Source: Schistocephalus solidus
Lineage: Eukaryota > Platyhelminthes > Cestoda > Diphyllobothriidea > Diphyllobothriidae
DNA length: 64,000 nt
Direction of reading: 5' to 3'
Assembly: GCA_017591395.1 (NCBI GenBank)
Contig: WEDG01000435.1
Span: 62,001 to 126,000 of the forward strand
Under the pieces are notes generated by a model, which saw only the letters and a list, made by a program, of their open reading frames with translations, had not been told where the DNA came from and ran no database searches. The translations under genes and the position numbers were made by a program. Positions 939 to 62,715 of the stretch are shown here, one piece after another (the stretch's first letter is position 1; every line of letters starts with the position of its first letter).

Positions 939-1824
939 GAAAGGGTACTAGAGACAAAAAGAACGCATCATTCATAGTAAACATTTGCCAGGCAATGGCC
1001 TGTCTACAATAATTAATAGGACTCGCGTTCACTGCTAGGATTCGTATCTGTTGCGAGTATTACTCTCCTGTGCGTAGCCGTGATTTCAGCACCGATATTT
1101 TGGTATTTGGCGTGACGATTTCTGACCAATTTGGCCCGCTGTTGTCGAAATATTTGGTTACCCGCACCCCCTCCGCGTGGCTACTAATTTTGTCCAGGCA
1201 AAATCGTAGCACATAATAGGGAGGTGGAAGGTCATTGCGTCTGTCAAATGAATTTGGGCCACGAGACCATAACTAAAACAGTTCGCGGCTCACATGGCCG
1301 TCGCCTCTTGCAGGCATTTAGGTCTCGTGAGGCCTGGAGGTGTGGCTGGATTGTGTCGAGGGAGCCGCAACCTGAGAACTAGCGTCATTTCTGTGCATTG
1401 CTGCTCCATGTTCGGCTATTGGCGTCCACAGTACTCTCAGTTTCTCTGAGGTAGTTGCTTTTCCGCAACTTTACCAGGTTCGGTAAACGAAGCCAGACGT
1501 TTCCTGCTAATTAACGTAGGGGTTTGGAATCTGTTGCCTATAAATACTGCGCTCCTGGTGCCTACATTACCCTGTTCTGAAACCATCTCTGGTGATGTTT
1601 TTGAATGCGAATCCAAAACATCTATACAAGTCATTTCTGTTCCTGCGATCAGTTGTGGTTGCCTTTTGACAAGGACTAGGGAAAATTTCATAAGTCATTA
1701 CCAGCCAACCATGCTCTACTTTTTAATTGGGCCTGCATCTTCAAGCTCTCAACGAATGACGTACTCCGATTAATATCTCTTTTGCCTAATTAGGCTGTCC
1801 GATGACAGTAAGATAGCCAGTTTT

Positions 1825-2002
1825 TCAATACCGACAAAAACAAGGGAGACTGGAGTGGCCATCTCTGGCTCATTAGACGTCATCAGCCAGTCATACTGAA
1901 CCCCAGGTGGTGGTGCCTCAACCGAGGTTTGGGCCCCCGACCTGTTGATCAGGAGTCCAACGCTCTATCCATTGAGCCATGGGCCCGTTGTTTTGCCGGT
2001 TT
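1825..2002 (-). repeat. tRNA-derived SINE (family A), head and body
   Basis: On the - strand a tRNA-like head (GGGCCCATGGCTCAATGGAT, box A-like, then a box B-like region) is followed by the body containing CCAGGGTT-like, GACTGGCTGATGACG and GGGAGACTGG-type blocks shared with the other copies. The hammerhead-like core is damaged here: stem II is mutated and GAAA has become GAGA. Confidence 0.8.
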
Positions 2003-2025
2003 TAATCAGCAATATTGACATTCGT

Positions 2026-2190
2026 TGACGAACGCTCACCGATCGCTAACCGGAACTCACCTCGTTCCGCTCTACCTTGGGACTCACTCTCAAGCCCCAT
2101 CAACAGCGGCACAGTGGCACCAGATTAACAATATTGACAAAGACAAGCGAGACTGTAATGGCCATCTCTGGCCCATTAGCCGTCGAAGAT
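2026..2190 (-). repeat. SINE family A, tail fragment (inverted relative to the next copy)
   Basis: The blocks GCTCACCGATCGCTAACCGG and CGTTCCGCTCTACCTTGGG, and those up to the GACAAAGACAAG motif, are the reverse complement of 2345-2500. The fragment breaks off inside the hammerhead-like core and has no tRNA head. With the + copy that follows it forms an inverted pair. Confidence 0.8.
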
Positions 2191-2242
2191 CGAGATCGTT
2201 CGTCGATAAATATCAATATTCCTGATTTAAATTAGCAAGACA

Positions 2243-2505
2243 ACGGGCCCGTGGCTCAATGTTAAGAGCGTTGGAGTTATACTTAGCAGGTTGCGGGTTC
2301 GTGCTTCGGATGATGCACCGCCTGGGGTTGGGTATGACTGGCTGACGATGGCTACTGAGCCAGAAATGGCCATTCCAGTCTATCTTGTCTTTGTCGGAAT
2401 CGTTAATCTGCCACCACTGTGCGGCTTTTGACGGGGCTCGAGAGTGAGTCCCAAGGTAGAGCGGAACGAGTGAATTCCGTTAGCGATCGGTGAGTGTTCT
2501 TCAAA
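2243..2505 (+). repeat. SINE family A, near-complete copy
   Basis: The tRNA-like head (GGGCCCGTGGCTCAATGTTA, then GCGGGTTCGTGC as a box-B-like segment) is followed by CCTGGGGTTGGGTATGACTG, the hammerhead-like core at 2336-2380, the CTTGTCTTTGTCGG block and the tail CGAGAGTGAGTCCCAAGGTA...GCGATCGGTGAG. The order of parts fits a Pol III-transcribed SINE. It serves here as the reference copy. Confidence 0.85.
2336..2380 (+). ncRNA. Hammerhead-ribozyme-like motif inside SINE
   Basis: In order: GACTGG (stem I, 2336-2341), core CTGACGA (2342-2348), stem II TGGCT/AGCCA around loop ACTG (2349-2362), GAAA (2363-2366, last A in stem III), palindromic stem III ATGG/CCAT (2366-2373), unpaired T (2374, predicted cleavage after it), CCAGTC (stem I, 2375-2380). 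All core positions of the CUGANGA...GAAA...UH consensus are met and all three stems pair. Stem III has no loop, so activity may need dimers. Other copies share the layout with C-A at the stem II base. Activity is untested. Confidence 0.6.
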
Positions 2506-2704
2506 AAACTAGCCAATCTCCGACGCCTCTGTCAGCAATACTTCTGGCGTCCTGCCGTCTGTTCAACGGCCGCCATACTTTCCTCCTCCTCCCCCCACGT
2601 GTCCTGTGTGCACCACTTCTGCCGTATCCTTGGTTTCGCTATTTTTTTTTGCTAGTTTGCTTGCCGTGCGTGAATCTCATCTTCACTTTGTCTGCCTCCC
2701 AGTA

Positions 2705-2829: not shown

Positions 2830-13048
<10,219 letters not shown>

Positions 13049-18558: not shown

Positions 18559-19252
18559 CTACCGCAGGTTTTCATGGAGACGCATGTGACCTAGTAGACC
18601 TATGTGGTGTGTGAATGTGTGTGGGCAGTGCGGAGAGTTGAGTCGGGTGCGGTGGGCTCTGTGCGATGGATTCGCAAGTGACCGACTAGGCTGGTGTGTG
18701 ACGCGAATGTGCGATCGCAATGAGGACAGGTTAGTTCCGATCCCCATTGCTGGTACTGGGGGTGGCGGTGGTGGTGGAGGAGGAGGTAGCAGGTGGCAGG
18801 TAGTCGGAGGTGGCCAATGAGGCGGCGGGAGTGAGGCAAGTGGTGTTCGTCGCCGTGATTGGCTTAACGGTGGGGGATGGAGGATGGTGTCGGTGGTCGT
18901 GGGCTGTGGGGCATCGATGAAGTGGTTATCAGTTGTTGGGTTGATCATCTTCATGGGGTCTGAAGCAGATGTGGCAGAAGTTGATGTTTTGGGATTGTTG
19001 TTGCATTGAGTTCGAAGATGTCCAACCAGGCCGAATCGTGCACGGAATGTGCTTTGACAGAGTGAGCACGGTGGCAGGGCTTGGGCATTGGCGGTATTGA
19101 TCCGTGGTTCTTGTGACTTGCGAGCCGGCCCTTTTGGCCATAGCAGCGGCGATCCGTTTGGCTTCGTATAATGCTGCACTAGTTTTCACGAATCTTCTCC
19201 ATGCCGGTCTATCCTGGGCGAGGTCCTCCCAGGTCGCCGGGTTGATTTGCAA
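18559..19252 (-). pseudogene. LINE linker and C2H2 zinc-finger domain, frameshifted
   Basis: Frame 1 (19252-18929) starts MQINPATWEDLAQDRPAWRR, a segment that directly follows the reverse transcriptase in this family. Frame 2 (19179-18559) holds CSLCQSTFRARFGLVGHLRT, a Ser/Thr/Pro-rich linker with a polyproline run, and CPHTFTHHIGLLGHMRLHEN before the stop. The middle finger has drifted into a third frame (CPHCDRTFASHTSLVGHLRI, 18600-18839). The fingers follow C-x2-C-x12-H-x3-H. They may bind nucleic acid for the element, by analogy with zinc knuckles in other LINEs. Confidence 0.85.
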
Positions 19253-19283: not shown

Positions 19284-19754
19284 TTAGCGTCGTTTTTGAC
19301 TCCCCTGTCTGCGAGCACCCGTAGCGACATCTCCGAAGAAAATTCCTTTGGGTAGTCGCTCATCTTCTATTCTTACCAGGTGGCCGCTCCATCGCATTTG
19401 CACTTGCCTCAGCATGGCGTGGATGCTGATGATTCCGGTTCGCTCTATGACTTCCGTGTCCGGGATCCCGTCTGGCCATCTCAGCTTCAGTATTCTGTGG
19501 AGGCAGTTGCGATAGAAGTGATTCAGCTTCCTGGCTTGATTTGAGTAGACCGTCCAGGTTTCCGCTCCGTAAAGAAGTGTCGTGAATACCGTGGCGATTT
19601 CACACGGAGGCCTGCAGCTGGCCGAGGGTTCGACTGGCTTTGGAGATACGTTGAGCAACCTTGTTGTCAACTCTCGTGTTGCGTGACAGTGTGCTTCCCA
19701 GATAAGCAATTTTTCCACATTTTTTAGTTGAGATAGGTTGATTTTGGTTTTCAA
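19284..19754 (-). pseudogene. LINE reverse transcriptase, C-terminal fragment
   Basis: The 156-codon frame reads [11 protein letters not shown] (frameshifted from the usual KFAYLGS region), then [37 protein letters not shown] and [17 protein letters not shown], ending [16 protein letters not shown]. These are the post-polymerase motifs of non-LTR retrotransposon reverse transcriptases in flatworm genomes. The catalytic domain upstream is missing, and the first part runs out of frame relative to the family. It functioned in target-primed reverse transcription when intact. Confidence 0.88.
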
Positions 19755-19776
19755 ATTTATATTATATTGTCCAGAA

Positions 19777-20352
19777 ATACTATTTTTTAGAAAAGGTACA
19801 AATTACGAAAAGGTGAAAAATCGATCTACTTGAGTAAACTGAAGTTTAAAATGTATAGAAAGCCTGTCCATGCAAATAAACGAGTGAATAAAGCAGCAAA
19901 AGTATAATTACTTTTGAAAATAGTCTTTTTCAGAGTTTTTTTCATACATTTTTGGCTAGATTAACCGCAGCGAAAAGTATGGCCGTCACCAAACAACCTA
20001 ACATGCGAGTGTATATTCAAACACCGTTTCACAAGAATTGGTAATTTTTCTTCTGTTTGTACATTGTCTTAGATGCGTTCGACCAAGGCAAGCAGATATT
20101 CGCTTGATTGCGCCGATAGGGACGGCAGAGGAATACAATATTTCATAAGCTCACCTGTTTGCAGGCCGGTCACTGACTAGTAAATTTACATAGAATTGTA
20201 AACGTACCATTTTCTGTATATAGAGATGACTATTCTATTGTAAAATTTCTCTATAACTATTTCGGGTTTTCTATCACAATGAATTTCAGATGTTCCTTGA
20301 AAATGGTGTGAATTCTTTACGACGTTCACTGTCTTCAGTCGACTGCTCATGT
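19777..20352 (+). repeat. Direct repeat R1, right copy
   Basis: Partner of 16860-17425, offset about 2.9 kb. It has a short insertion (GAAAAGGTGA) near 19807 and scattered substitutions. No TG...CA termini or primer-binding site were recognised, so an LTR interpretation is not supported beyond the bracketing. Confidence 0.9.
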
Positions 20353-22809: not shown

Positions 22810-22930
22810 GTAGAATAAAATATCGACAAAGACAAGGGAGATTGAGATAATCGTTTCTGGTTTATTAGCCTTTGTCAGAAAGGCATACCCAATCTCGCAT
22901 CATTGGGCGGTAAGCTGTTCGATGATCTTC
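22810..22930 (-). repeat. SINE family A body fragment
   Basis: ATCGACAAAGACAAGGGAGA, TTTCTGGTTTATTAGCC and GGCATACCCAATCTCGC match the body. The core reads CTGACAA, so the hammerhead-like motif is damaged. The tRNA head is absent or unrecognisable. Confidence 0.65.
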
Positions 22931-23079
22931 CATAAATGCTAAAAGCCTTTTTTTATATCGACTGGGATCGGGAATATGAACTATGATGGAACAATGTTCG
23001 TCGATTAGATTTTAATTGTCTTCCTCCCGTATTTCTTTTGTGGTTCAGACTAAAACCTTTTAGGCCGTCGCCTAGTGAC

Positions 23080-23195
23080 TGGAAATGACCATTCAGACCT
23101 CCCTAATCTTTGTCGGTATTCCATCCTGCCTGCGCGGCTGTCTACGAGGTTTCTAAATTAAGCCCCAAAACGCAGCGGGACCAGTACTTGTCGCA
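23080..23195 (+). repeat. SINE family A body/tail fragment
   Basis: GAAATGACCATTCAGACCTC, CTAATCTTTGTCGGTATTCC, TGCGCGGCTGTC and AAGCCCCAAAACGCAGCGGG follow the SINE order. Its orientation is opposite to the copy at 22810-22930, another inverted pair. Confidence 0.6.
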
Positions 23196-23974
23196 ATCTA
23201 ATTGGTTAACGCAGTTCTAACAGAGTATCCTTCCTTTCTGGCGCTAAATCTGCTCCGTGAGGGATTTTCGTCGGTGCACGCACATAGAACTTTGGGCCAA
23301 AGAGGCAAAATGGCAACAGTAACGACAAAATGTTTTTATGGACGCTTCCAGAGCACAGTGGCATATCCTGCAGCCTAAAGCAAACTTGGGGAACGCTCGC
23401 GCACACCGGTCAGCCAATTACCGTGCTCCAGAATGTTCTCGAACGTCGTGCGCGCGAGTACGCATGCCAGTCAACCAACACGCCCCTGTTCCTACGTCGA
23501 TGCTAAGGGCAAGCTTTTTTGCAAAGGCTCTGCGACGGCGTACCGAGACCGAGCACGTGGCAACGTAGCCATGCCGCAGCAGCGTGCGTTCGGTGCCTTG
23601 AGGAATATATTCATCCTGTTTTAGGTTCATTCCTACTGATTTTGTATTTCCTTTACAAATTACGGTTGTTCCGTCTTACAGCCATCCTCTCCTCCAGAAT
23701 GGTAATTGTTGCGCTTACTCAGAAGAGGAACAACACTGTCTCATGATATGTGGTAGCCGAACTTTGATAAGCCCTTTTGAGTCATTGACGCTTGTCGTGT
23801 GTGCATGTTGCCCGTGAAGACGGTGCCGTTTCCCGTCACAGCAGGCATTGCATCCAACCTCACCACCGCATCAATAGCGAATTTGAAAAAGAAGAGAAAG
23901 TAAAACTGTTATAGCCCGACGCATAGATGAAAGAGAAGGATAGCAGGTGATTCGGGTAAAAAAATTATTCTCAG

Positions 23975-25726: not shown

Positions 25727-25812
25727 GGCAGCCTCGGTGGGAATTGAACCCACGCCAGCAAGGGAAGGCTTTAGTACAGCGAACGCTCTAGCCAACTGAG
25801 CTAGGAGGCCCC
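25727..25812 (-). repeat. tRNA-like sequence, array copy 1
   Basis: On the - strand: acceptor-like GGCCTCC, then TAGCTCAGTTGGCTAGAGCG (classic D-arm/box A), a weak anticodon arm around GTACTAA, a long variable region, and GTGGGTTCAATTCCCAC (perfect T arm, box B), closing GAGGCTGCC. The acceptor pairs GCCTC/GAGGC. The anticodon stem has only three pairs, so it is more likely a tRNA pseudogene or a SINE head than a working tRNA. Confidence 0.6.
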
Positions 25813-25939
25813 ACCGCGAGCCGTAAGTTTAATCACACTTGGGTCAAGTTATCCGCCCAGCGTATGAAATCCACCAATTCTGACACAGTAAGCTGACTGC
25901 CCAAGCATTTTAGCTGTGATAGGAGGAGTCTCAACAATC

Positions 25940-26185
25940 GTGCTGCGAGACTCACTCATCCTTTTGTGCCTTGAGGCTCAATCTCGAACCCCGACTGCAG
26001 CCACTCAGTGGCTATGAAAATGAATTAATTAATGAATTCCATAACCGACAAAGACACGGGGGATTTAAAGGGCCGTTTCTGGCATATTAATCCTCATCAG
26101 ACTACCATACATTACCCCAGGTGTTACATCATCCGAGGCCCGAATCAGCGACCTTCTGGTTAGAAGTCCAACTAAGTGCTCACAG
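25940..26185 (-). repeat. SINE family A copy inside array unit 1
   Basis: Tail (GAGACTCACTCATCC, CTTGAGGCTCAATCTCGAAC), body (ACCGACAAAGACACGGGGG, TTTCTGGCATATTAATCCTC) and head (CTTCTGGTTAGAAGTCCAAC). The - strand core has CTGATGA and GAAA, but stem II is poor (GGATT/TGCCA). Confidence 0.75.
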
Positions 26186-27099
26186 TCCACAAAATTTTAA
26201 CTTATTTACTGTTATCAACCAGTGATACCTCAGCAAGAACGCTCATCCCATCGCGTAGTTATCTGTCCTTTGATATCCGTCTATTTTCAGCTGGATCCTC
26301 CCAAGTGCATCGAGATTTATCATCTCGAAGACCATCTTCAGATCCAAAGAGGTGATGTAGAGACTGGTTCAAATTGTCCGGCGATTTTATTGCAGTACCG
26401 TGGTTTTAGAAATCCGTACCGAATTTCAAGGAAAACTCAGGGATCCAGGAGTAGGCTCGGGTGATGGGGTAGGACTTAAACGGAGATTTAGCCAGCAGTA
26501 TTCCTGTTGTTGATGCAAATCATCGTTTTCGGAATCAAAGTGGGTGACCGAATGATCCCGGGGTGGTTCCGCTGATCGCATCGAGCAATTCAACAAAATA
26601 ACGTAAGCATGGCTGTAACAGTTAGTTTCACCCAACATATTCCCAAGATATTTTCAGATACGTCAGAATACCGGCTTTTCAATAAGTTTCTTTCCATTCA
26701 GTTGAAGAACTACACTCTACTTCTGGAGTACGCACCAGCCGACCGTCTACGCTGTGTGCGTGCGCAGGCTTGACTTTCCGGTCGGGTGCCGGGGTGTCCA
26801 GTTAGGAGATGCACCGTGCAGGAGTGAGGGGCTCAACGAACGAGAGCAATACGCTTCATTTTTAAATTATCATTTTAAAATTTTCAGCAAAAAGGCCTCC
26901 ATTCACTGAGGACAAAATTGGTACGCAAAAGAGATAGCACCAGAAGAAAACAGAAGATAAATAGTAAGCGAAAGCTGCAACTTTCTGCATCATGAACGGT
27001 CGGTCGTCAAAATTGCGCCAGAATTTCTTCAAAACGGTGTAGGCGTCGTTTGCAAACGATCTTCTTATCGTATTTCTTTGACGCACCGGTGAAAAACTG

Positions 27100-27185
27100 G
27101 GCAGCCTCGGTGGGAATTGAACCCACGCCAGCAAGGGAAGGCTTTAGTACAGCGAACGCTCTAGCCAACTGAGCTAGGAGGCCCC
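27100..27185 (-). repeat. tRNA-like sequence, array copy 2
   Basis: Identical by eye to the copy at 25727-25812, in the equivalent place of unit 2. Confidence 0.6.
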
Positions 27186-27312
27186 ACCGCGAGCCGTAAG
27201 TTTAATCACACTTGGGTCAAGTTATCCGCCCAGCGTATGAAATCCACCAATTCTGACACAGTAAGCTGACTGCCCAAGCATTTTAGCTGTGATAGGAGGA
27301 GTCTCAACAATC

Positions 27313-27558
27313 GTGCTGCGAGACTCACTCATCCTTTTGTGCCTTGAGGCTCAATCTCGAACCCCGACTGCAGCCACTCAGTGGCTATGAAAATGAATGA
27401 ATTAATGAATTCCATAACCGACAAAGACACGGGGGATTTAAAGGGCCGTTTCTGGCATATTAATCCTCATCAGACTACCATACATTACCCCAGGTGTTAC
27501 ATCATCCGAGGCCCGAATCAGCGACCTTCTGGTTAGAAGTCCAACTAAGTGCTCACAG
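27313..27558 (-). repeat. SINE family A copy inside array unit 2
   Basis: The duplicate of 25940-26185 created by the tandem repeat. Confidence 0.75.
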
Positions 27559-28137
27559 TCCACAAAATTTTAACTTATTTACTGTTATCAACCAGTGATA
27601 CCTCAGCAAGAACGCTCATCCCATCGCGTAGTTATCTGTCCTTTGATATCCGTCTATTTTCAGCTGGATCCTCCCAAGTGCATCGAGATTTATCATCTCG
27701 AAGACCATCTTCAGATCCAAAGAGGTGATGTAGAGACTGGTTCAAATTGTCCGGCGATTTTATTGCAGTACCGTGGTTTTAGAAATCCGTACCGAATTTC
27801 AAGGAAAACTCAGGGATCCAGGAGTAGGCTCGGGTGATGGGGTAAGACTTAAACGGAGATTTAGCCAGCAGTATTCCTGTTGTTGATGCAAATCATCGTT
27901 TTCGGAATCAAAGTGGGTGACCGAATGATCCCGGGGTGGTTCCGTTGATCGCATCGAGCAATTCAACAAAATAACGTAAGCATGGCTGTAACAGTTAGTT
28001 TCACCCAACATATTCCCAATATATTTTAGATACGTCAGAATGCCGGCTTTTCAATAAGTTTCTTTCCATTCAGTTGAAGAACTACACTCTAGTCTGGAGT
28101 ACGCACCCGCCGACCGTCTACGCTGTGTGCGTGCGCA

Positions 28138-28655
28138 GGCTTGACTTTCCGGTCGGGTGCCGGGGTGTCCAGTTAGGAGATGCACCGTGCAGGAGTGCTA
28201 GGGGGCTCAACGAACGAGAGCAATACGCTTCATTTTTAAATTATCATTTTAAAATTTTCAGCAAAAAGGCCTCCATTCACTGAGGACAAAATTGGTACGC
28301 AAAAGAGATAGCACCAGAAGAAAACAGAAGATAAATAGTAAGCGAAAGCTGCAACTTTCTGCATCATGAACGGTCGGTCGTCAAAATTGCGCCAGAATTT
28401 CTTCAAAACGGTGTAGGCGTCGTTTGCAAACGATCTTCTTATCGTATTTCTTTGACGCACCGGTGAAAAACTGGGCAGCCTCGGTGGGAATTGAACCCAC
28501 GCCAGCAAGGGAAGGCTTTAGTACAGCGAACGCTCTAGCCAACTGAGCTAGGAGGCCCCACCACGAGCCGTAAGTTTAATCACACTTGAGTCAAGTTATC
28601 CGCCCAGCGTATGAAATCCACCAATTCTGACACAGAAAGCTGACTGCCCAAGCAG
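28138..28655 (+). repeat. Tandem array, unit 3 (truncated)
   Basis: Follows units 1 and 2 closely through the tRNA-like sequence (28474-28559) to AAGCTGACTGCCCAAGCA, then departs into unrelated AT-rich sequence. The SINE part is missing. Confidence 0.95.
28474..28559 (-). repeat. tRNA-like sequence, array copy 3
   Basis: Identical by eye to the first two copies, in unit 3. A G-to-A change (CCACGAG for CCGCGAG) sits just outside it. Confidence 0.6.
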
Positions 28656-28765
28656 GATTTCCTAAGCAATCAAACTAGAATCTACCAGATGACTATCAGG
28701 CAAAATTAATTAGTAGAGGATTCAGCAGATTTGAATAATTTCTTTGACCCCCATGTGAAAAACTG

Positions 28766-28847
28766 GGCAGCCTCGGTGGGACTTGAACCCACGCTAACAA
28801 GGGGAAGGCTTTAGTACAGCCAACGCTCTACTGAGCTAGGAGGCCCC
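28766..28847 (-). repeat. tRNA-like sequence, diverged copy 4
   Basis: The same family (GTGGGTTCAAGTCCCAC T arm, TAGCTCAG-like D arm) but with a four-base loss in the D arm (GAGCTCAGTAGAGCG) and several substitutions. It lies outside the array unit. Confidence 0.6.
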
Positions 28848-30460: not shown

Positions 30461-30877
30461 AATTGTTGCCTTTTACTGTACTGCAGGGGATAACGCGCGG
30501 CCTTTCAGTGATCATCGTTGGGCACGCGCATATGATTAGAGGCCAATATGATGCCTTAATTCGCCTGAGCTGTGTGGACAGGTCGCATTCGTTCGTCAGT
30601 TTTCGGCTGAACCCCAACGAGAACGCTGCGTCCCTTTCAGTCAGCTAGGGGAGCAGATGGCTGATCAGGTCACTCAGCGGCCGTATTGTGCGGTCCATGA
30701 GGGGGTAGGGGGGTCGCAGGCTAAAAGTGTGCCGGTTCGGCTGACAGTTGTCCTCTGCCTTCTGGGCTCCGCTTTTGTTGGCGGGCGCGGTGTCGGAATT
30801 GAGGAGAGGGGAACACGCGCTCGCATTCGTGGCGGGTGAAGATAATTTATTTGACCATGGTCTCCGTGGCGCCATTG

Positions 30878-30908
30878 GGAGGAGGAGGAGGAGGAGGAGG
30901 AGGAGGAG
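30878..30908. repeat. (GGA)n microsatellite
   Basis: Ten GGA units shortly before the long TAG tract. Confidence 0.95.
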
Positions 30909-30927
30909 TTAGAAGAGGTGACTTTTT

Positions 30928-31188
<261 letters not shown>

Positions 31189-31674
31189 AGGTTGATCATT
31201 GGACAGTTCATTCCTCCAGATTCACGTCTTTCCAATTCTCCTATGCGTCCTGTAAACGATTGATTCCGAAACTTGTAGCTCCGTCTGCTCGATCGATCAC
31301 CGTACTCGGCTACGCATTGTAAGAGATTCCAAGTAATTCTCGTATATTCGGAGTCCGTTGAGTGCGTTGTTCACTACAGGTTTATTGCGTCAATTCTGTT
31401 CGCCTTCTCTTTTGCCAACCACAAAACTTGTATCTGTTTCAGCACCGTGTGGGCATCCAGTGTCATTCCAGGAGTTTAAGGTCTTCTTTCGTATTAATGC
31501 CCCTTCAGTGTTCTCTGACGGGCAGTTTAGTTGGAAGCGGTATAGCATCTTCGTGTGATAAGTGCTCACCGACAAATACATGATTATTTAAATCTCCATC
31601 TGTGGTATATTTACTGGCAGCAGTCAGTACTACCCCGGAACCGGATTGCATATCCAAGATTTAAAGTCCAAGTC

Positions 31675-35512: not shown

Positions 35513-35817
35513 CATACATGGTTATCATGATTAAAACTAATACCTTAATTTAGGTAATTGGAAAAATTTTTATGTTCTTCATCAACCCCCAATGACCTAA
35601 AAAATCTTTGTCCATAATCTTGCCAATTGGGCGGACCTGAAGAAAGAGAAAGCCCGTAAATTTACGCGAGATGAATGTGGTTATGTCACCGCCTTACTTA
35701 AGACCCAGGAGATAGGAGCAGCAATTAAAATAATAAGGGTGGGGCTTCCTTCCATTTTAAAGAACAAGTCAGGATTCCCACCTTGTACAACCAGATTTAA
35801 AATGTATTAGTAAATTA

Positions 35818-36880
35818 GTGGTATGTCATCCTCGCGCATTCACTCATCGCATGGGCCTATTCGGTCACATGCACATCCATGACAGTGGAATTCACCGTAA
35901 TGCCGACAACACCAATACCCCTTGCACACCCTCCACTCCTGTCATTCTTACCGCCACTGCCACCCCCACTCCCATGAATGACATTCCCTTAGCCTCTCCC
36001 GATTTCTCCTGCCCACACTGCGCCCGCAACTTCAACTCACGCATCGGCCTGGTCGGTTACCTGCGAATCCATCGCATGGAGGCTGGTGAACCAGTGCCTG
36101 GGGCTCCGACATACAGTCGATGCGCCCGCCTCCACTGCCCTCACTGCTCCCGCATATTTACACAACACATGGGCCTATTCGGACACATGCGTCTCCACGA
36201 AAACCTGCGGTAAACCACCGGAGGCTTATCCACATCAGCGCACACTACCTACACCAAGATATAGACAACACCCTCACCATCATCATGTACCTGAGAGTAT
36301 CACGGTTTCCTAGAAATCGTGGCTGACGCTTACACCAGACCGCGCCGTCGGCCCAGTGAGCGTTTTGTGTTGTGTGGCTGACCAGTTGCTTGGGAGTCAG
36401 ATGGCGATGGCTCCTCCATATCCCCTGATTTAGTGAATCCTAGTGTGTGCGTTATGGGGGCCAGGTCGTGCTGTGGCGCGCGAAGACGGGTACGCCGACC
36501 AGTCAGTCAATGCGCCCACTCCCACATCAGACTCGGACGGTGGTCTGATTTTGGGGGTGGGGGAGAGAGTGAGATGGACAGCTCAGCGCATTTTCCTCAC
36601 TATAAACAATCTGCGCGCTTGAAACTAGCACGGTGCGCTAAAAGTGGTGGTACGCCCAAGGGTGGTTGCGGCCGCGCCAGCCGCCTGCGCTCTGTCCCAT
36701 CTCCAGTCTTCTTGGCTGTGTCTTGACACCGGGCTCAGGTGGGGGAAGAGAGAGTGCGGTAGATGCAGTGCAAGTCTACTATCACTTCAAACTAAATCAC
36801 GCGCAAGTCACCGTCCCTGCACCACCTGGTGTGGAGCATACGGTGGACATAGTCGAAATCGACGGTCGAACTGTCGGTAT
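35818..36880 (+). mobile_element. 5'-truncated LINE end: three C2H2 fingers plus 3' UTR
   Basis: The open frame 35818-36213 is intact. It holds a partial finger (HRMGLFGHMHIHDSGIHRNA), CPHCARNFNSRIGLVGYLRI and CPHCSRIFTQHMGLFGHMRL, ending HENLR and stop. A linker repeats EAGEPVPGAPTYSR, seen also at 56.4 kb. The 3' UTR (36214-36880) carries GAGTGAGATGGACAGC and GGGCTCAGGTGGGGGAAGAG blocks shared with the other copies and ends near GGTGGACATAGTCG. The truncation lies within the zinc-finger domain, typical of incomplete target-primed reverse transcription. Confidence 0.85.
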
Positions 36881-37324: not shown

Positions 37325-37428
37325 ACGGGACTCACTCATCCCACTCTCGAGACGCACAGCGGTTGGTATTTGGCAGATGAATATTGCCGGAAACGAAAAA
37401 GGAGATTGGAATGGTAATTTGTGCTTAG
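37325..37428 (-). repeat. SINE family A tail/body fragment
   Basis: GACTCACTCATCCCACTCTC, GAGACGCACAGCGG and TGCCGGAAACGAAAAAGGAG match the tail and body. It breaks off in the body, directly against a + strand copy. Confidence 0.65.
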
Positions 37429-37640
37429 AGCCTCGGGTGGCGCAAAACGTGGGGTTTTGTATGGCTTGCCGATGACGGCTAATAAGCCAGAAATGGCCAT
37501 TCCAGTCTCCCTGGTCTTTTTCGGTAATGTCGGTAATGCCCATCCTATAAACCGCTGTGTGGCTGTGGGCGGGGTTCAAGAGTGAGCCCCAAGGCAGAAC
37601 GGGATGAGTGAGTCTTATAAACGATCGGTGAGCGCCAACC
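37429..37640 (+). repeat. SINE family A body and tail
   Basis: GCCTCGGGTGGCGCAAAACG, GACGGCTAATAAGCCAGAAA, ATGGCCATTCCAGTCTCCC and AAGGCAGAACGGGATGAGTG, then GATCGGTGAGCG. The hammerhead-like core is almost perfect but reads CCGATGA instead of CTGATGA. It forms an inverted pair with 37325-37428. Confidence 0.8.
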
Positions 37641-37666
37641 AGTGAATGCGAATATTCCCAGTAAAC

Positions 37667-37740
37667 CACGAGCCCGTCGCTCAATGATTAAGGCGTTTAA
37701 CTTCTAGTCAATAGGTCGTAAATTCGAGCCTCGGGTAGAC
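37667..37740 (+). repeat. SINE family A tRNA-like head only
   Basis: CGAGCCCGTCGCTCAATGAT, CTTCTAGTCAATAGGTCG and AATTCGAGCCTCGGGT are a tRNA-like head without a body. Confidence 0.6.
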
Positions 37741-42050: not shown

Positions 42051-44346
42051 TATTTTAGAAAAAGGGAAAACCCCGCGTTTAAAACATTGTTTGTTTCCCC
42101 GAACCTGCACGCCTTCTATCTCCCCGTCCACTGGAGAAGCTTTCATGCTCCATCTTCTCCGCAATCTCGAAGTGAGCATGCGTTCTATATAATACTTGGA
42201 AATAACCTTCAAATCTAACAGCGACTGATGCGAAGAATCTTAGCTTCCCAAACACAAACGTTACTTTTTGAAAAGCGCGTTTTTTAGGAATGTTTCAAAG
42301 TAAAGAGCCACTATTATTGATGTCACTGCCAAATCCTCGTTAGTTCTGCCCAAAAGAATAGCTCCTAACGTCCCTAACAACAGCCCACTGACGGTTTTTA
42401 GCAGAAAAATTGTACCTTTGAAGTGGGAGCATTCAGTAGAATAGAAAAATGAAAACTACTAGACTGCATATTTCATTCGAAAGTAAGTAAGCCTCCGATG
42501 TTAGCAGCAGAGGACTGCAAACGGGGAGTAGTGAAAAACAGCCGATGTGCTTCTGAAGTCCGGTTTTGCGAATTCACGTGCTTTCGGCGCAGTTGGTAGA
42601 CTCCGGAAAGGTTCAGTTGACGTCAAAAATGTTCAGGTCCGCATTTCGTCCCTTCAGTACCTCTGCGAACGCCGCAGTGTCCTCATTTCAGCAGCATTGC
42701 CTGTGCCTTCGTTATCTGGAGACAGATGCGTACGTGCACTCAAAAAGGAGCGTCCTTCAAAAACTAGGGCTATGCGCGGCGGCCGTTAGTGCATGATGAA
42801 AACAACAGCCGTCGAGATTTTAGCAAAGTCACAGAAGTTCACGATTCGCATGAGCTGATTTCCAACTCGAAAAACAAAATATTTTTAGTGCTGTCACCAC
42901 TCTTTTTATGCGTCACAAGAGGATGGATGCTACGAGAGGAGGATGCTGAACTGCGTATATTAAAGACTACCGTAAGCCCTTTTGGCTGAGTTCGCAGTGG
43001 TGTGGCGGCTTGAATAATGGTTGTATTTAGGAACACCAGAGGTGCATCAGGTCTAGGCTTGAGTAGGAATTTCATGATAATTTCTGCTGACAACATATCG
43101 CTTTTTGTGTTTATATGACGCCAGGATCACCACTTGTAGCGGCAATACGCAGTTGGCGTACTTAGAGTGCCACAAACCCCAGATCAAGATTTGCTTAGCG
43201 AGAGAAGACGGAACACGCCTGAATGTGGGAATTACTGTGTAAAACACCCGAAACTTGCTGCGTCTCATATAGCAACGGTAGTTGTTATGAGGTCAGGGCC
43301 TGTGCTAACGATATTAAGTCTGTGAGAGCGAGACTATGGCGTCTGATGCTTTCATATGCATCGGAGCTTGGTTCGAGGTTTTTCTAGTGCCTAACGGGCT
43401 GTATGTGTGTTACCCAAGAAATAGTGTGTTTTAAGTGTGGGGCATAGACGAGTATGATTGAACGCATGTGTGTCGGAGCTAGTCGCAAGTCGGCACGTCT
43501 AATCCAGGTGAAATGTTAGTACAACGGAGGCTTTGCAGATAGAGTCGCGATCAGCCAGATGAAATAGATCACTCCAGTGCAATATGTCAACCCCATCTCT
43601 TCAGCAGAACCACATATCCCATCTACCGTCCCCTCCCATCGTCTACACAACCTCGTCAAAGACCGCCATTTCTACAGCGTGCAACGCTTAATTTGCGACT
43701 GCGACGTGCCACTGTGATGGGTACGCCCGGCTGTCCTGCTCGGCCAATCATAACCCTCACGGACCTGACTCACATGACTGCGTGACCACCGTGGGCAGCG
43801 GTCCCTATCGCCAGAAGTCGCCCGCGTCTCGACGCCCCTCATCAACGTCTCCCCTTTCCCGATAGTTCGCTACAAATCACTATCCTAACCTCTTCACTTC
43901 TTTCGAACCCGAATCCGAAGGTCGCAGCGCGGCTGGGATCTGGTTTTAAGAACTTAAGCTGCCGCGATAAACCCATTTGATCGCTATGCAGGAAAAAATA
44001 TTATATCAGTGATGCGAGTTACTATTTGACGAATGGTCTTAAGCCCTGAAATGTTATTTTTGAGCTCGAATAACCGAGCGCCGGAGCAGACGAAAAAGTG
44101 CCTCCACGACTCATAAGGTGCCTTTACACCTGCTGACGATCGGTGACTATCATTAACTAACTGACTGCGAGGCTGCCTTCTACGTCCTGGTTCCTCTTAG
44201 TCCTGCGATAAAAACTTTTCTGTCTTTCTGTCTGCACGAAGCTTTAAGGACTTTTGACTGGCCTGTCACGTTAGGTATAAACGAGGTCCATGCATATGTG
44301 CAGTTCATATAAAATGGAAACTTGCGTTCTGCTCTCAGCGGATTGG
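42051..44346. other. No feature recognised
   Basis: A GC-richer patch at 43560-43960 with CCCATCTACCGTCCCCTCCC-type sequence resembles repetitive DNA but has no second copy in the window. No coding signal. Confidence 0.45.
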
Positions 44347-44590
44347 CGCTCACCGATCGGTTGTGGGATTCAATCGTCCCGTCGTGCCTTGGGACTCACG
44401 ATCGATTCCCACCAACAGCATAATTGCTGGTGGAAGAAACATCACTGACAGAGACAAGGGTGACTAAAAATAACCATTTCGGCTTACTAGCGGAAATCAG
44501 CCAGCGATAATCAACTAGCGGGAGTAGCATCCACCCGCCCGCTTGGTTAGAAGACCAACGATATAACTCCACTGCGCCACAGGCTCGTTG
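44347..44590 (-). repeat. SINE family A, degenerate full copy
   Basis: GCGCTCACCGATCGGTTGTG, CGTGCCTTGGGACTCACGAT, GACAGAGACAAGGGTGAC, AATAACCATTTCGGCTTAC and CTTGGTTAGAAGACCAACG, ending CCACAGGCTCGTTGT, in the SINE order. The core is destroyed. Confidence 0.75.
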
Positions 44591-44617
44591 TATTACCCGT
44601 TTTGGTCCGAGCCTGGC

Positions 44618-44800
44618 TGGTGCAACACCTGGGGTTAGATATGGTTGATCGATGATGACTGCTTAGCCAGAAATGACTATTCCAGTCGCCCTGGTCTTTG
44701 TCAGTAATGTTCTTCTGCCTCGCTTAAGTACTCCGTTCTACGGCAGCCTTCGTAGTAGACCGTTTCGATACCTCTATGTTTGGGTATGGTTAATGTGCAG
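44618..44800 (+). repeat. SINE family A body fragment
   Basis: GGTGCAACACCTGGGGTTAG, CCAGAAATGACTATTCCAGT and GCCCTGGTCTTTGTCAGTAA. It forms an inverted pair with 44347-44590. Confidence 0.7.
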
Positions 44801-47204: not shown

Positions 47205-47340
47205 CAACCAAGTCTCGGGTGGAGCATCACCTGGGGTTGGGTCTGGTTGGTTGATGATTGCTATTTAGCCTGAAATGACCATTCCAGCATCCCCAGTCTT
47301 CGTCGGTAATGTTCTCCTACTGTCACTAAAACCGGTACAG
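47205..47340 (+). repeat. SINE family A body fragment
   Basis: CCAAGTCTCGGGTGGAGCAT, CACCTGGGGTTGGGTCTGGT, GAAATGACCATTCCAGCATC and GTCTTCGTCGGTAATGTTC. The core reads TTGATGA and stem II is poor. Confidence 0.7.
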
Positions 47341-51944: not shown

Positions 51945-52870
51945 GCGCGTGAATTAGTTTTAAGTGATAGTAGCCTTGCGCTGCAGCTACCGCACTCTCT
52001 CATCCTCCCCCACCTGAGCCCGATGTCAAGACAGAGTCAAGAAGACCGGAGATGGGAGAGGGCTCAGGTGGCTGGTGCGGCTGGAGCCGCCCCTGGGCGT
52101 GCCACCACACCTGGCTTGGATCCCACGGAGTGGGAGTGCCATAAAGGCCACATTAAGAAGGAGCCATTGTAGCCTGACTCTCAGTCCGCCAGTCAGCCAC
52201 TTCACACAAAACACACATTGGGCTGACCACGCGGTCCGAGTTATCCCGTCAGTTGGCAACCTTCCAAGCCACGGCTTTTAGCTCACCGTGATAGTTTCAA
52301 GCGCGTCAGATTTTTATAGTGAGGAACATGCGCTGAGCTGTCGACCTCACTCTCTCCAACCCCACAATCAGACACTGTCCGAACCGGTCAGTTGCCTGAC
52401 GTGGGAGTGGGTGCATTGGCTGACGGATCAGCGTAACCGTCTTCGCACGCCACAGCACGACCTGGCCCCCATCATGCACACACCAGGATTCACAAACTCA
52501 GGGGATATGGAGCAGCCATCGCCGTCTGACTCCCAGTCCACTGGTCAGCCACTCGACACACACAGCACATACACTGAGCCGACGGCGTGGTCTGGTGGAA
52601 GCGTCAGATTGGCAGACGTCCCAGCCACGGTTTCTAGGACACCGTGATATACTCTGGTAAATGGTGATTGTGAGGGTGTTGTCGATGCATTGGTGTAGGT
52701 ATTGTGCGCTGATGTAGCTTAGCCTCCGGTGGTTTACCGGAGGTTGTCGTGGAGTCGCATGTGTCCTAATAGGCCCATGCGGTGTAAATGTGCGGGAGCA
52801 GTGAGGGCAGTGAAGGCGCCTTCCTTCACTGCCCCCAATCGACGTACATATAAGAGGATTCACATGCGAC
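51945..52870 (-). mobile_element. LINE 3' end: zinc-finger remnant and 3' UTR
   Basis: On the - strand: a finger remnant (LHCPHCSRTFTPH then GPIRTHATPRQP in another frame, 52863-52720) followed by UTR blocks CCTCAGCCTCC-like, CTGACCAGTGGACTGGGAGT and GGCTCAGGTGGGGGAGGATG, ending near 51945. The block order is the same as at 17.6-18.5 kb. No reverse-transcriptase part is present. Confidence 0.8.
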
Positions 52871-52894
52871 TGGAGAGCAGAAAAGATGGCGGCT

Positions 52895-56079: not shown

Positions 56080-56790
56080 ATGCACAACACACGCTGGGCC
56101 GACGGCGTGGTGTACGCGTCAGATTGACAGCCTTCCAAGCCATGGTTTCTAGGAAACCTTGATATTGTCAGGTACATGATGATGGTGAGGGTGTTGTGTA
56201 TGTATTGTTAACGATAGTGTGTGCTGATGTGGGTTAGCCTCCGGTGGTTAACCGAAGGTTGGCATGAAGGTGCGTGTCCTAATAGGCCCATGCGGTGTGT
56301 AAATGCGCGGGAGCAGTGAGGGCAGTGGATGCGGGCGCGGCGACTGTATGTCGGAGTCCCAGGCACTGGTTCACCAGCCTCCGTGCGATGAATTCGCAGG
56401 TGACCGACCAGGCCGATGCGTGAGTTGAAGTTTTGGGTGCAGTATGGGCAGGAGAAATCGGAAGGGGCTGGGGGATGTCGTTCGTTGTAGTTGAGGTAGC
56501 AGTGGAGGTGAGAATGCCAGGAGCGGAGGGTGTGCATGGGGTATTGTGTTGTCGGCATTGCGGTTAATTCCACTGTCGCGGGTGCGCATGTGACCGAATA
56601 GGCCCATGCGAGGGCAGTGGATAAGGTAATCTCTGCTGTGGGTCGATGCCCCAGGCACTGGTTCACCAGTCTCTGTGCAAACGCTTCGCAAGTGACTGAC
56701 CTGGCCGATATGTGAGATGAATGTACGGTCGCAATGAGAACCGTTTAGCAGATAGTCCCCATCACTGGTGGTGGTGGTGGTGGTGGCGGC
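56080..56790 (-). mobile_element. LINE zinc-finger domain and part of 3' UTR
   Basis: Two overlapping frames on the - strand (56666-56208 and 56691-56371) hold a first finger remnant (PRMGLFGHMRTRDSG), CPYCTQNFNSRIGLVGHLRI and CPHCSRAFTHRMGLLGHAPS, with the linker EAGEPVPGTPTYSRRAR. The finger pattern is C-x2-C-x12-H-x3-H. A GGT microsatellite (56766-56801) lies at the upstream edge, equivalent to the polyproline/Ser linker of the copy at 18.77 kb. Confidence 0.85.
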
Positions 56791-57619
56791 GGTGGTTGTG
56801 GTGTCAGACTGCGTGGTTGGTTAAAACATATGCGTAATTTTTAAATACGTGTTTTCCTAAATAAGTACAGCAGATGTGCTTATTAGTTTGTGGTTTTAGA
56901 TACCAACGATGGTGGGGTTGTTGAAGTTCTCCTGGATTCTTCCGGGCGTCTGCAGTACCTAAAACTGATGAGTCGGTTTCTCTGGTGCTCTAACAACCCT
57001 GGGATCTAAAACGTAAACGCGAAGCAATTCGTGGGCTATATGTTTTTAAGCAAGCTTTCATGGGTGGTTTGACTTGTCCATTCCATAGTTGTGAATGAGT
57101 TAAGGTATGGTTGAGTTCGGTTGACTTAAGGCTTTTGATCAGGCCTGGCAACTTAAGCTTCATTTTTTAGGATATGTGCAAGGTGCCCACGGCTACCTCA
57201 GAGGATCTCTGGCTAGGCTAGGTAGAATAGTGGTCAGATGCCGCCAAGGTTGGCGTAAGGTGCTTTGAAGACTGACAAGGAATTTATCATGTTGCCGAGG
57301 TCGCAGCGCGCTTCACTTCCTTCGACGGTTCTGTCAGTGAGGATCCAATATCTAAGTCCGAGGAGCAAACTTTAACCAATGTTCCAAAGGCGGCATGAAG
57401 AGGCTTTACTGGTGGGACAAAAGAGGATGGTAGATCGAAGGTTCTGGGAACGAAAGATTAAAAACAACAATGTAACCCATAGCATTGCTTAAATACTCCA
57501 AGACGGTATGATGGAAGGGGCGCGCAAATTGAAAGGTGGTGTGTAAGTAGACCGTTAAAGGGAGAAAAACACGGAAGCTAAAGGTAACTGCGAGAGTAGG
57601 AACCAACTGTTCAAATCCA

Positions 57620-62479: not shown

Positions 62480-62635
62480 CTTGCAGAGAAAGTGAAATAG
62501 CCATTTCTGGCATACCAACGGTCATCAGCCAGCCATGCCCGACCCCGGGTTCTAGAAACCCCGATGCTCAACCGCACGACCTGCTGGTTAGGAGTCCAAT
62601 ACCCTAACCACTGCACTACCTCTGGGTTTGGTTAT
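62480..62635 (-). repeat. SINE family A, head and body
   Basis: AGTGAAATAGCCATTTCTGG, GGTCATCAGCCAGCCATGC, CCCGACCCCGGGTTCTAG and CCTGCTGGTTAGGAGTCCAA. The - strand has CTGATGA and GAAA, but stem II is mispaired. Confidence 0.72.
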
Positions 62636-62715
62636 GGCTGGCTGGTAAAGGCTAATAAGCCCTAAATGGCCACTCCGGTCCCCCTTGTCTTGGTCGACCA
62701 TATCCTGCCCATAGT
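62615..62715 (+). repeat. SINE family A body fragment
   Basis: CTCTGGGTTTGGTTATGGCT, AAGGCTAATAAGCCCTAAAT, GGCCACTCCGGTCCCCCTTG and TCTTGGTCGACC. It forms an inverted pair with 62480-62635. The core has CTGGTAA, so it is inactive. Confidence 0.68.

Follow-up and report, generated by a model that had tools for sequence, protein, structure and literature searches.

A hammerhead repeat with a tRNA-like head, retrozyme-type layout and two insertion end sites in the tapeworm Schistocephalus solidus

A repeat family with a type I hammerhead layout was characterized in Schistocephalus solidus, beginning from one copy in the window (the whole 64,000-nucleotide stretch of DNA analyzed). Judged by its layout, the repeat appears to be a retrozyme with a tRNA-like head, and it is nearest in kind to schistosome SM-alpha, to which it is likened by layout and not by sequence. 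What looks new is its pattern of insertion, with two fixed ends downstream of the ribozyme, head-to-head arms and single target-site duplications. On balance we consider it probable that this is a retrozyme-type repeat whose Pol III multimers would be cut to units by the ribozyme, closed into circles and copied by a helper reverse transcriptase with two start sites.

A type I hammerhead in a repeat family

On direct reading, all hammerhead parts and coordinates given for 2336..2380 in the original prediction were correct (Table 1). The core has the form CUGANGA...GAAA...UH with an open stem I, and there are three helices, with 6 pairs in stem I, 4-5 in stem II and 2 (monomer) or 8 (predicted dimer) in stem III. 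Further copies were sought with a strict descriptor (CTGANGA, stem II with at least 4 of 5 pairs, GAAA, U16.1-H17 and stem I with at least 5 of 6 pairs), which matched the window twice, at 2342 (+) and 6535 (-). In 358.5 kb of the genome, both strands included, there were 34 matches, all in the hammerhead repeat family (16 in the array of locus L038 and one in L017, a duplicate of L031), compared with 3 in 200 Mb of random sequence (one strand, first-order model with the window's dinucleotides). Because of this difference, chance is excluded as the origin of the motif, which is a property of the family, as had been proposed. The accompanying statement that the layout recurs in most copies was accurate for the layout, which was found again among 21 family pieces in the window using nhmmer, but the catalytic core was intact in only 31 of 91 non-redundant copies, the remainder being decayed, and in 11 of 39 copies from the window and loci chosen irrespective of position. 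Subfamily A has a 45-nt ribozyme whose exact sequence is present in 12,659 copies in the 604-Mb genome (6,652 and 6,007 by strand), while the reversed pattern, used as a control, gave 0 and 0 genome-wide. In 49 of 91 copies, the basal pair of stem II is replaced by a C.A mismatch; for an axolotl ribozyme whose helix II has a basal U-U mismatch, cleavage is still reported, and is better in the dimer (PMC7229834).

Table 1. Hammerhead parts and family copies in the window
Feature	Position	Strand	Basis or remarks
Type I hammerhead layout	2336-2380	+	Read directly from sequence; strict descriptor match
Stem I strands, GACTGG / CCAGTC	2336-2341 / 2375-2380	+	Read directly
Core, CTGACGA and GAAA	2342-2348, 2363-2366	+	Read directly
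Stem II, TGGCT, loop ACTG, AGCCA	2349-2353, 2358-2362 (strands)	+	Read directly
Stem III palindrome, ATGGCCAT, (A)TGGCCAT	2366-2373, then T 2374	+	Read directly
Predicted hammerhead cut	2374/2375	+	Layout
Right arm of head-to-head pair holding the hammerhead	2192..2523	+	Unit phase 262, then head, ribozyme and tail to type ii end
Left arm of the same pair	1809..2185	-	From unit phase 105, about 1.2 units, type i end
tRNA-like head	2252..2304	+	By eye; A-box-like 2252-2262, degraded B-box-like 2296-2304
Subfamily A copy, second to meet the strict descriptor	6497..6541	-	Descriptor
Subfamily A head-to-head pair	6492..6944	arms 6492-6832 - / 6777-6944 +	Overlap in profile match
About 1.5 units, two degraded ribozymes	11163..11632	+	Profile match
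One-unit copy, permuted	37425..37738	+	Start and end in B-box region
Head-to-head pair	44319..44721	44319-44607 - / 44606-44721 +	Type ii end (-), type i end (+)
Head-to-head pair	22817..23210		Left end type i, right end type ii
Head-to-head pair	62486..62702		Both outer ends near type i site
One-unit copy	3875..4190	-	Long (CTA)n run in type i end region
Copy with type i end and intact catalytic core	12560..12733	-
Copy adjoining tRNA-Ser-like sequence in 1.37-kb tandem repeat	25914..26172	-	Repeated at 27286-27545
Short copy from the B box up to the type i site	47210..47315	+

Conservation and covariation

The Rfam hammerhead models, which had been suggested as a check, gave no match to the window, to the copy alone or to the pristine subfamily-A ribozyme up to E = 10, in searches run without a positive control, an outcome named beforehand as counting against the proposal; a match to these models is an aid to recognition and lies outside the definition of a type I hammerhead. 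Compensatory changes, also suggested as a check, were few among 40 copies and not clearly above shuffles. A change on both sides affected 2 of the 6 pairs in stem I, 1 of 4 in stem II and 1 of 2 in stem III, with each such change in 1-2 copies; the covariation score was equalled in 43 of 500 shuffles and the number of both-sided pair changes in 96 of 500. RNAalifold did not recover the hammerhead from 40 copies. Decayed copies from a single genome are poor material for the covariation and RNAalifold tests.

Core sites matched the consensus at 0.904, compared with 0.843 elsewhere (91 copies; permutation p = 0.006). Subfamilies A and B diverge across most of the unit (67 of 130 tail positions alike), and the ribozyme domain, with 70 of 73 positions alike, is the best-conserved 73-column segment between them (median 53, minimum 36). 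The B consensus of this first comparison was derived from a mixed profile, three of whose rows were from A; when it was rebuilt from 38 copies, leaving out the L038 row and one that is A-like, the figure was again 70 of 73, with the minimum (33) in the tail. Of the three differences in the domain, one lies outside the ribozyme, one is at the free seventh core position and one changes a stem I U-A to U-G, and all three are expected to be tolerable. Because the seventh core position belongs to a CpG in many copies, variability there is not clean evidence.

These results bear on the reading that a conserved, structured tRNA-like RNA resembles a hammerhead by coincidence and does no cutting. Such a coincidence would fit the lack of an Rfam hammerhead match, the weak covariation and the C.A at the base of stem II, and is nonetheless very improbable given only 3 random matches per 200 Mb, preferential conservation of the core sites and ribozyme domain, and 12,659 exact copies.

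Stem III and predicted dimers

In the monomer, stem III consists of two pairs and a GGCC loop, and when the ribozyme segment is folded alone and unconstrained, its minimum-energy structure differs from the hammerhead. For the subfamily-A ribozyme dimer, the predicted co-fold is a double hammerhead (-44.1 versus 2 x -16.3 kcal/mol), while the dimer of the window copy is predicted to take a different structure; the proposal of dimeric ribozymes is supported for the pristine subfamily. The palindromic, almost loop-less stem III, described in the original prediction as potentially novel, is not new and is already known from newt and axolotl ribozymes (PMC7229834). As described there, axolotl ribozymes have a stem III of 1-2 pairs with a tetraloop cap, palindromic in one group, and in both axolotl and newt ribozymes cleavage is far better in the dimer. 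Schistosome W-element candidates are likewise reported to have an extremely short stem III (PMC8490949).

Repeat unit, arrays and abundance

The unit is 303-315 bp long (405 bp in one case) and comprises a tRNA-like head, the ribozyme, a structured tail and a spacer, followed in tandem copies by the next head; units and arrays thus have the retrozyme form of hammerhead-bounded tandem units of about 150-400 bp. The 405-bp unit (L031:5475-5879) contains an internal 90-bp tail duplication starting beside the ribozyme cut site, and its neighboring units share two changes, a core altered to CAGACGA and a stem II pair replaced on both sides, G-C by A-T. Profile searches identified 134 family pieces in 358.5 kb, and 61 were present in 254 kb (the window and 19 ten-kilobase stretches chosen regardless of position). 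The 603.7-Mb genome may hold on the order of 10^5 pieces, a rough estimate because the window is non-random, the contigs came from earlier matches and one stretch contains a long array.

That stretch, L038, was taken regardless of position and starts within an array of 15 full units (304-308 bp, 99.3% identical by substitutions), in which the ribozyme is intact in 15 of 15, one of them with a stem I G-to-A change allowed by the pattern. The L038 unit had at least 220 matches among the 40 of 1,735 candidates that were scored, and the matches listed span 28 contigs. At C925:15113-24904, about 32 near-identical units lie head-to-tail in a row. Matches of the ribozyme consensus to viral contigs numbered 0.

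The heads of both subfamilies are degraded and tRNA-like. The head of a sister copy, 6560-6630 (-), scored above the Rfam tRNA cut-off (30.3 bits), ARAGORN at a relaxed threshold assigned Leu(CAA) to the head in the subfamily-A units shown, and the anticodon of the subfamily B head is TCT by eye. A run of TTTT would stop Pol III; since TTTT is absent from both doubled consensus units, Pol III read-through into multimers is plausible. Stop to stop, no frame exceeds 93 codons in the A unit when tripled, or 70 in a B-type unit of L015, so the unit evidently encodes no reverse transcriptase.

Two additional features of the window were noted. A 1.37-kb tandem repeat at 25727-28845 (-) contains tRNA-Ser-like sequence (ARAGORN anticodon ACT; Rfam 35.9 bits in three copies), and very long trinucleotide runs are present at 3728-4147, where a family copy has its type i end region, and at 30674-31370.

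Insertion ends

End points were mapped in 46 pieces of at least 60 bp from the window and 18 loci, with the L038 array left out. For 37 of the 46 pieces, the 3' end lies in one of two stretches, unit positions 155-185 (22 pieces; first or type i site) and 262-300 (15 pieces; second or type ii site), where an even spread would put about 10. These ends suggest two internal reverse transcription start sites downstream of the hammerhead. Array ends use the same sites, type ii for C925 and C3447 and type i for C2018, and each array meets an AT repeat there. Copy starts on the 5' side are scattered.

Insertion ends at the ribozyme cut as a rule were rejected: a 3' end at this site was found in 1 of 46 pieces, and in 0 of 46 from query-chosen loci, so the insertion ends give no sign of cleavage. 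One fragment of the ribozyme, at L038:4965-5032 beyond the array and a stretch of (AT)33, does stop in GGCCAT, within one base of the predicted 3' end of cleavage, and runs on into further AT repeat.

At least 20 nt of the preceding unit is included in 18 of 24 head-containing colinear copies, and 8 of 39 colinear copies are at least 330 nt long. Copies longer than one unit therefore require a multimeric or circular template, and uncut multimers would explain them as well as circles do. The family had been described as a tRNA-derived SINE. A tRNA-like head joined to a hammerhead agrees with that description, but it is not the whole story because head-to-tail arrays and insertions longer than one unit are retrozyme-type features; a tRNA-derived SINE is expected to begin at the Pol III start and to span at most one unit, and only 4 of 46 starts lie near that point.

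Head-to-head pairs and target-site duplications

The copy that had been read as a SINE forms the right-hand arm of a head-to-head pair; the hammerhead arm was recognized in the original prediction, whereas the pair and the tandem arrays were missed. Ribozyme pieces in the left arm, 1809..2185 (-), carry GAGA in place of GAAA, and no target-site duplication was recognized around the pair (1809-2185 / 2192-2523). In the window and 18 loci, neighbors within 100 bp were head-to-head in 13 cases, tandem in 1 and tail-to-tail in 1. When query-chosen loci were added, neighbors within 60 bp were head-to-head in 26 cases, tandem in 5 and tail-to-tail in 3, but many loci behind the 26 pairs were picked by likeness to the window copy, and the 13/1/1 count is the one from a set without such choice. 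The outer ends of the 26 pairs were one of each site in 16 cases, two second-site ends in 4, two first-site ends in 1 and other in 5. A few of these pairs may be of other origin, because some overlap on opposite strands, with gaps down to -186, and because of L013:713-1325, an arm pair with two type ii ends that lies inside a larger palindrome (outer flanks largely mutual reverse complements). Pooled counts leave out L001, which repeats the window, and various counts omit L014, L017, L030 and L038 as duplicates or array.

A single target-site duplication, as around retrozyme insertions, was present at several loci. A score of at least 9 was obtained for 6 of 23 pairs, compared with 0.95 expected from swapped flanks, and for 3 of 37 other copies, compared with 0.86 expected. 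The duplication of the L007 pair is GAAAACTATTC (11/11), that of L022, counted among the 6, lies 13-26 nt off the mapped ends, and L021, a copy of 1.54 units, has one duplication (12/13).

In subfamily A, the two end sites are alike at 14 of 16 positions, a value reached by 233 of 22,435 random pairs. In subfamily B, the sites have other sequences with a weak likeness (5.6% of random pairs score as high in one comparison, and the local score was 6 in another), and the likeness of the two sites is convincing in subfamily A only.

Two end points, scattered starts and single duplications together point to reverse transcription. They also bear on the reading that the family is satellite DNA, amplified as DNA by unequal exchange or extrachromosomal circles and dispersed by recombination, with RNA and ribozyme as side products. 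Although long arrays of near-identical units agree with it, we regard satellite amplification as quite improbable in view of the single target-site duplications and of the end points common to three array ends and most dispersed copies, with starts that are scattered.

Retroelement fragments in the window

A tapeworm-like origin, as had been suggested for the family, agrees with a reverse transcriptase-like fragment at 19284-19799 (-), whose best homologs, over about 60% of the query, are from Schistocephalus solidus (78% identity) and Spirometra (about 70%), some of the homologs being named reverse transcriptase. Repeated zinc-finger-like frames are present at 18559-19185 (-), 35761-36213 (+), 52498-52893 (-) and 56208-56820 (-); two share a terminal GHMRLHENLR, and in the three frames examined the Pfam matches were below cut-offs. 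These frames are likely the 3' part of a LINE-like element.

Twin priming by a LINE is a source of head-to-head pairs. The family might accordingly be an ordinary tRNA-derived SINE copied by a LINE, with pairs made by twin priming, a relic hammerhead and arrays formed later by unequal crossing-over. The tRNA-like head (30.3 bits), the short target-site duplications, flanks that are AT-richer at copy ends (61.3% versus 55.5%, 81 ends), the fragments described above (in which Pfam names no reverse transcriptase and the zinc fingers stay below cut-offs) and insertion ends that ignore the ribozyme cut site are all compatible with such copying. We nevertheless judge it unlikely, if the least so of the alternatives weighed here, because 18 of the 24 copies with a head reach into the preceding unit, 8 of 39 copies are longer than one unit, a copy of 1.54 units has one target-site duplication, there are two fixed 3' ends instead of one, and the ribozyme domain is the best-conserved part between the subfamilies.

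Comparison with known systems

In schistosomes, SINE-like repeats that carry a hammerhead are known as SM-alpha and Sj-alpha (Ferbeyre 1998; Laha 2000). The SM-alpha unit is reported as about 335 bp (PMC8490949), over 38,000 hammerhead candidates are reported in S. mansoni (PMC2770079), and schistosome tandem hammerhead repeats of 150-400 bp, some with a full tRNA, have been described (PMC4918200). As far as these accounts go, the tapeworm repeat shares with SM-alpha a flatworm host, a tRNA-derived head, a type I hammerhead, a similar unit size and a copy number in the tens of thousands. The SM-alpha head is derived from tRNA-Gln(TTG), whereas the subfamily-A units shown here are not Gln in ARAGORN, and the two 3' ends and head-to-head pairs of the tapeworm repeat were not found described in the portions of the schistosome literature compared. 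In open-licence literature searched with a few wordings, the hammerhead reports found were from schistosomes, and none was found of a hammerhead or retrozyme in a tapeworm or in Cestoda.

Metazoan non-LTR retrozymes are described as having type I hammerheads with a weak stem III in small tandem units and RNAs of about 170-400 nt (PMC7229834) that are self-paired (PMC7229834; Cervera and de la Pena 2020). The tapeworm repeat resembles them in its type I hammerhead, small tandem units and weak stem III. According to the sections of PMC7761336 consulted, retrozymes do not seem to harbor promoters or helper-revealing motifs; in contrast, the repeat described here has a candidate promoter in its tRNA-like head and inserts with ends at two fixed sites. 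Penelope and Terminon elements are named there as likely helpers of metazoan retrozymes (PMC7761336).

For PAc of Anolis, a Penelope-like element, reverse transcription is reported to start at two internal RNA sites downstream of the hammerhead, in a region rich in AC; the targets are AT-rich, both of their strands are extended, and genomic copies occur in tandem. Insertion is reported to be independent of ribozyme cleavage, and nothing in the account indicates use of the end made by the ribozyme (PMC11167929). The footprint of the tapeworm repeat resembles each of the PAc points that are visible in sequence, with an AC-rich stretch in subfamily A only, and differs in that its two sites are about 110 nt apart, compared with the 30-40-bp tail of PAc. 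Penelope elements also encode a reverse transcriptase and GIY-YIG, whereas the tapeworm unit, of about 300 bp and with no frame above 93 codons, has no such coding region.

Proposed mechanism and helper

Pol III use, cleavage, dimer action, circularization and a helper are all inferred from the features above. The tRNA-like head likely drives Pol III transcription across several units, the ribozyme would cut the multimeric transcripts into unit lengths, and these RNAs are likely ligated to circles. A helper reverse transcriptase likely copies the repeat RNA to DNA from two fixed internal start sites.

By analogy, a Penelope-like enzyme would be the likeliest helper, because an enzyme of this kind is reported to begin at two RNA sites that follow a hammerhead, extending both target strands; we hold this identification tentatively, at a little below an even chance. 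A more specific version, in which a Penelope-type enzyme would copy the RNA (probably circles) from two ends, both strands of a nicked AT-rich target priming on paired internal sites, is possible but rather doubtful. The cDNA arms would run until they meet, giving head-to-head pairs with one target-site duplication, and the paired start sites would evolve together (14/16 alike in A; other sequences in B). Genome-wide, at least five GIY-YIG matches were present among 150 of 1,471 candidates scored, at 28.5-30.1 bits, partly with stops; the five are above the Pfam cut-off of 22.6, yet low. No convincing helper sharing the 3' end of the repeat, and no such LINE 3' UTR, was found in 358 kb, where the search for shared 3' ends returned marginal matches and one of 27 nt linking two arms in L013/L030.

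Significance

The tapeworm family extends tRNA-linked hammerhead retrozymes, as recognized by their layout, from blood flukes to a tapeworm, where the exact ribozyme alone has 12,659 copies. Its insertions provide a readable footprint of how a retrozyme-type RNA returns to DNA. The question of the helper becomes testable, as a candidate enzyme must reproduce the two start sites, the head-to-head arms and the single duplications, and two-ended copying of the Penelope type, if true, would name the helper class of metazoan retrozymes.
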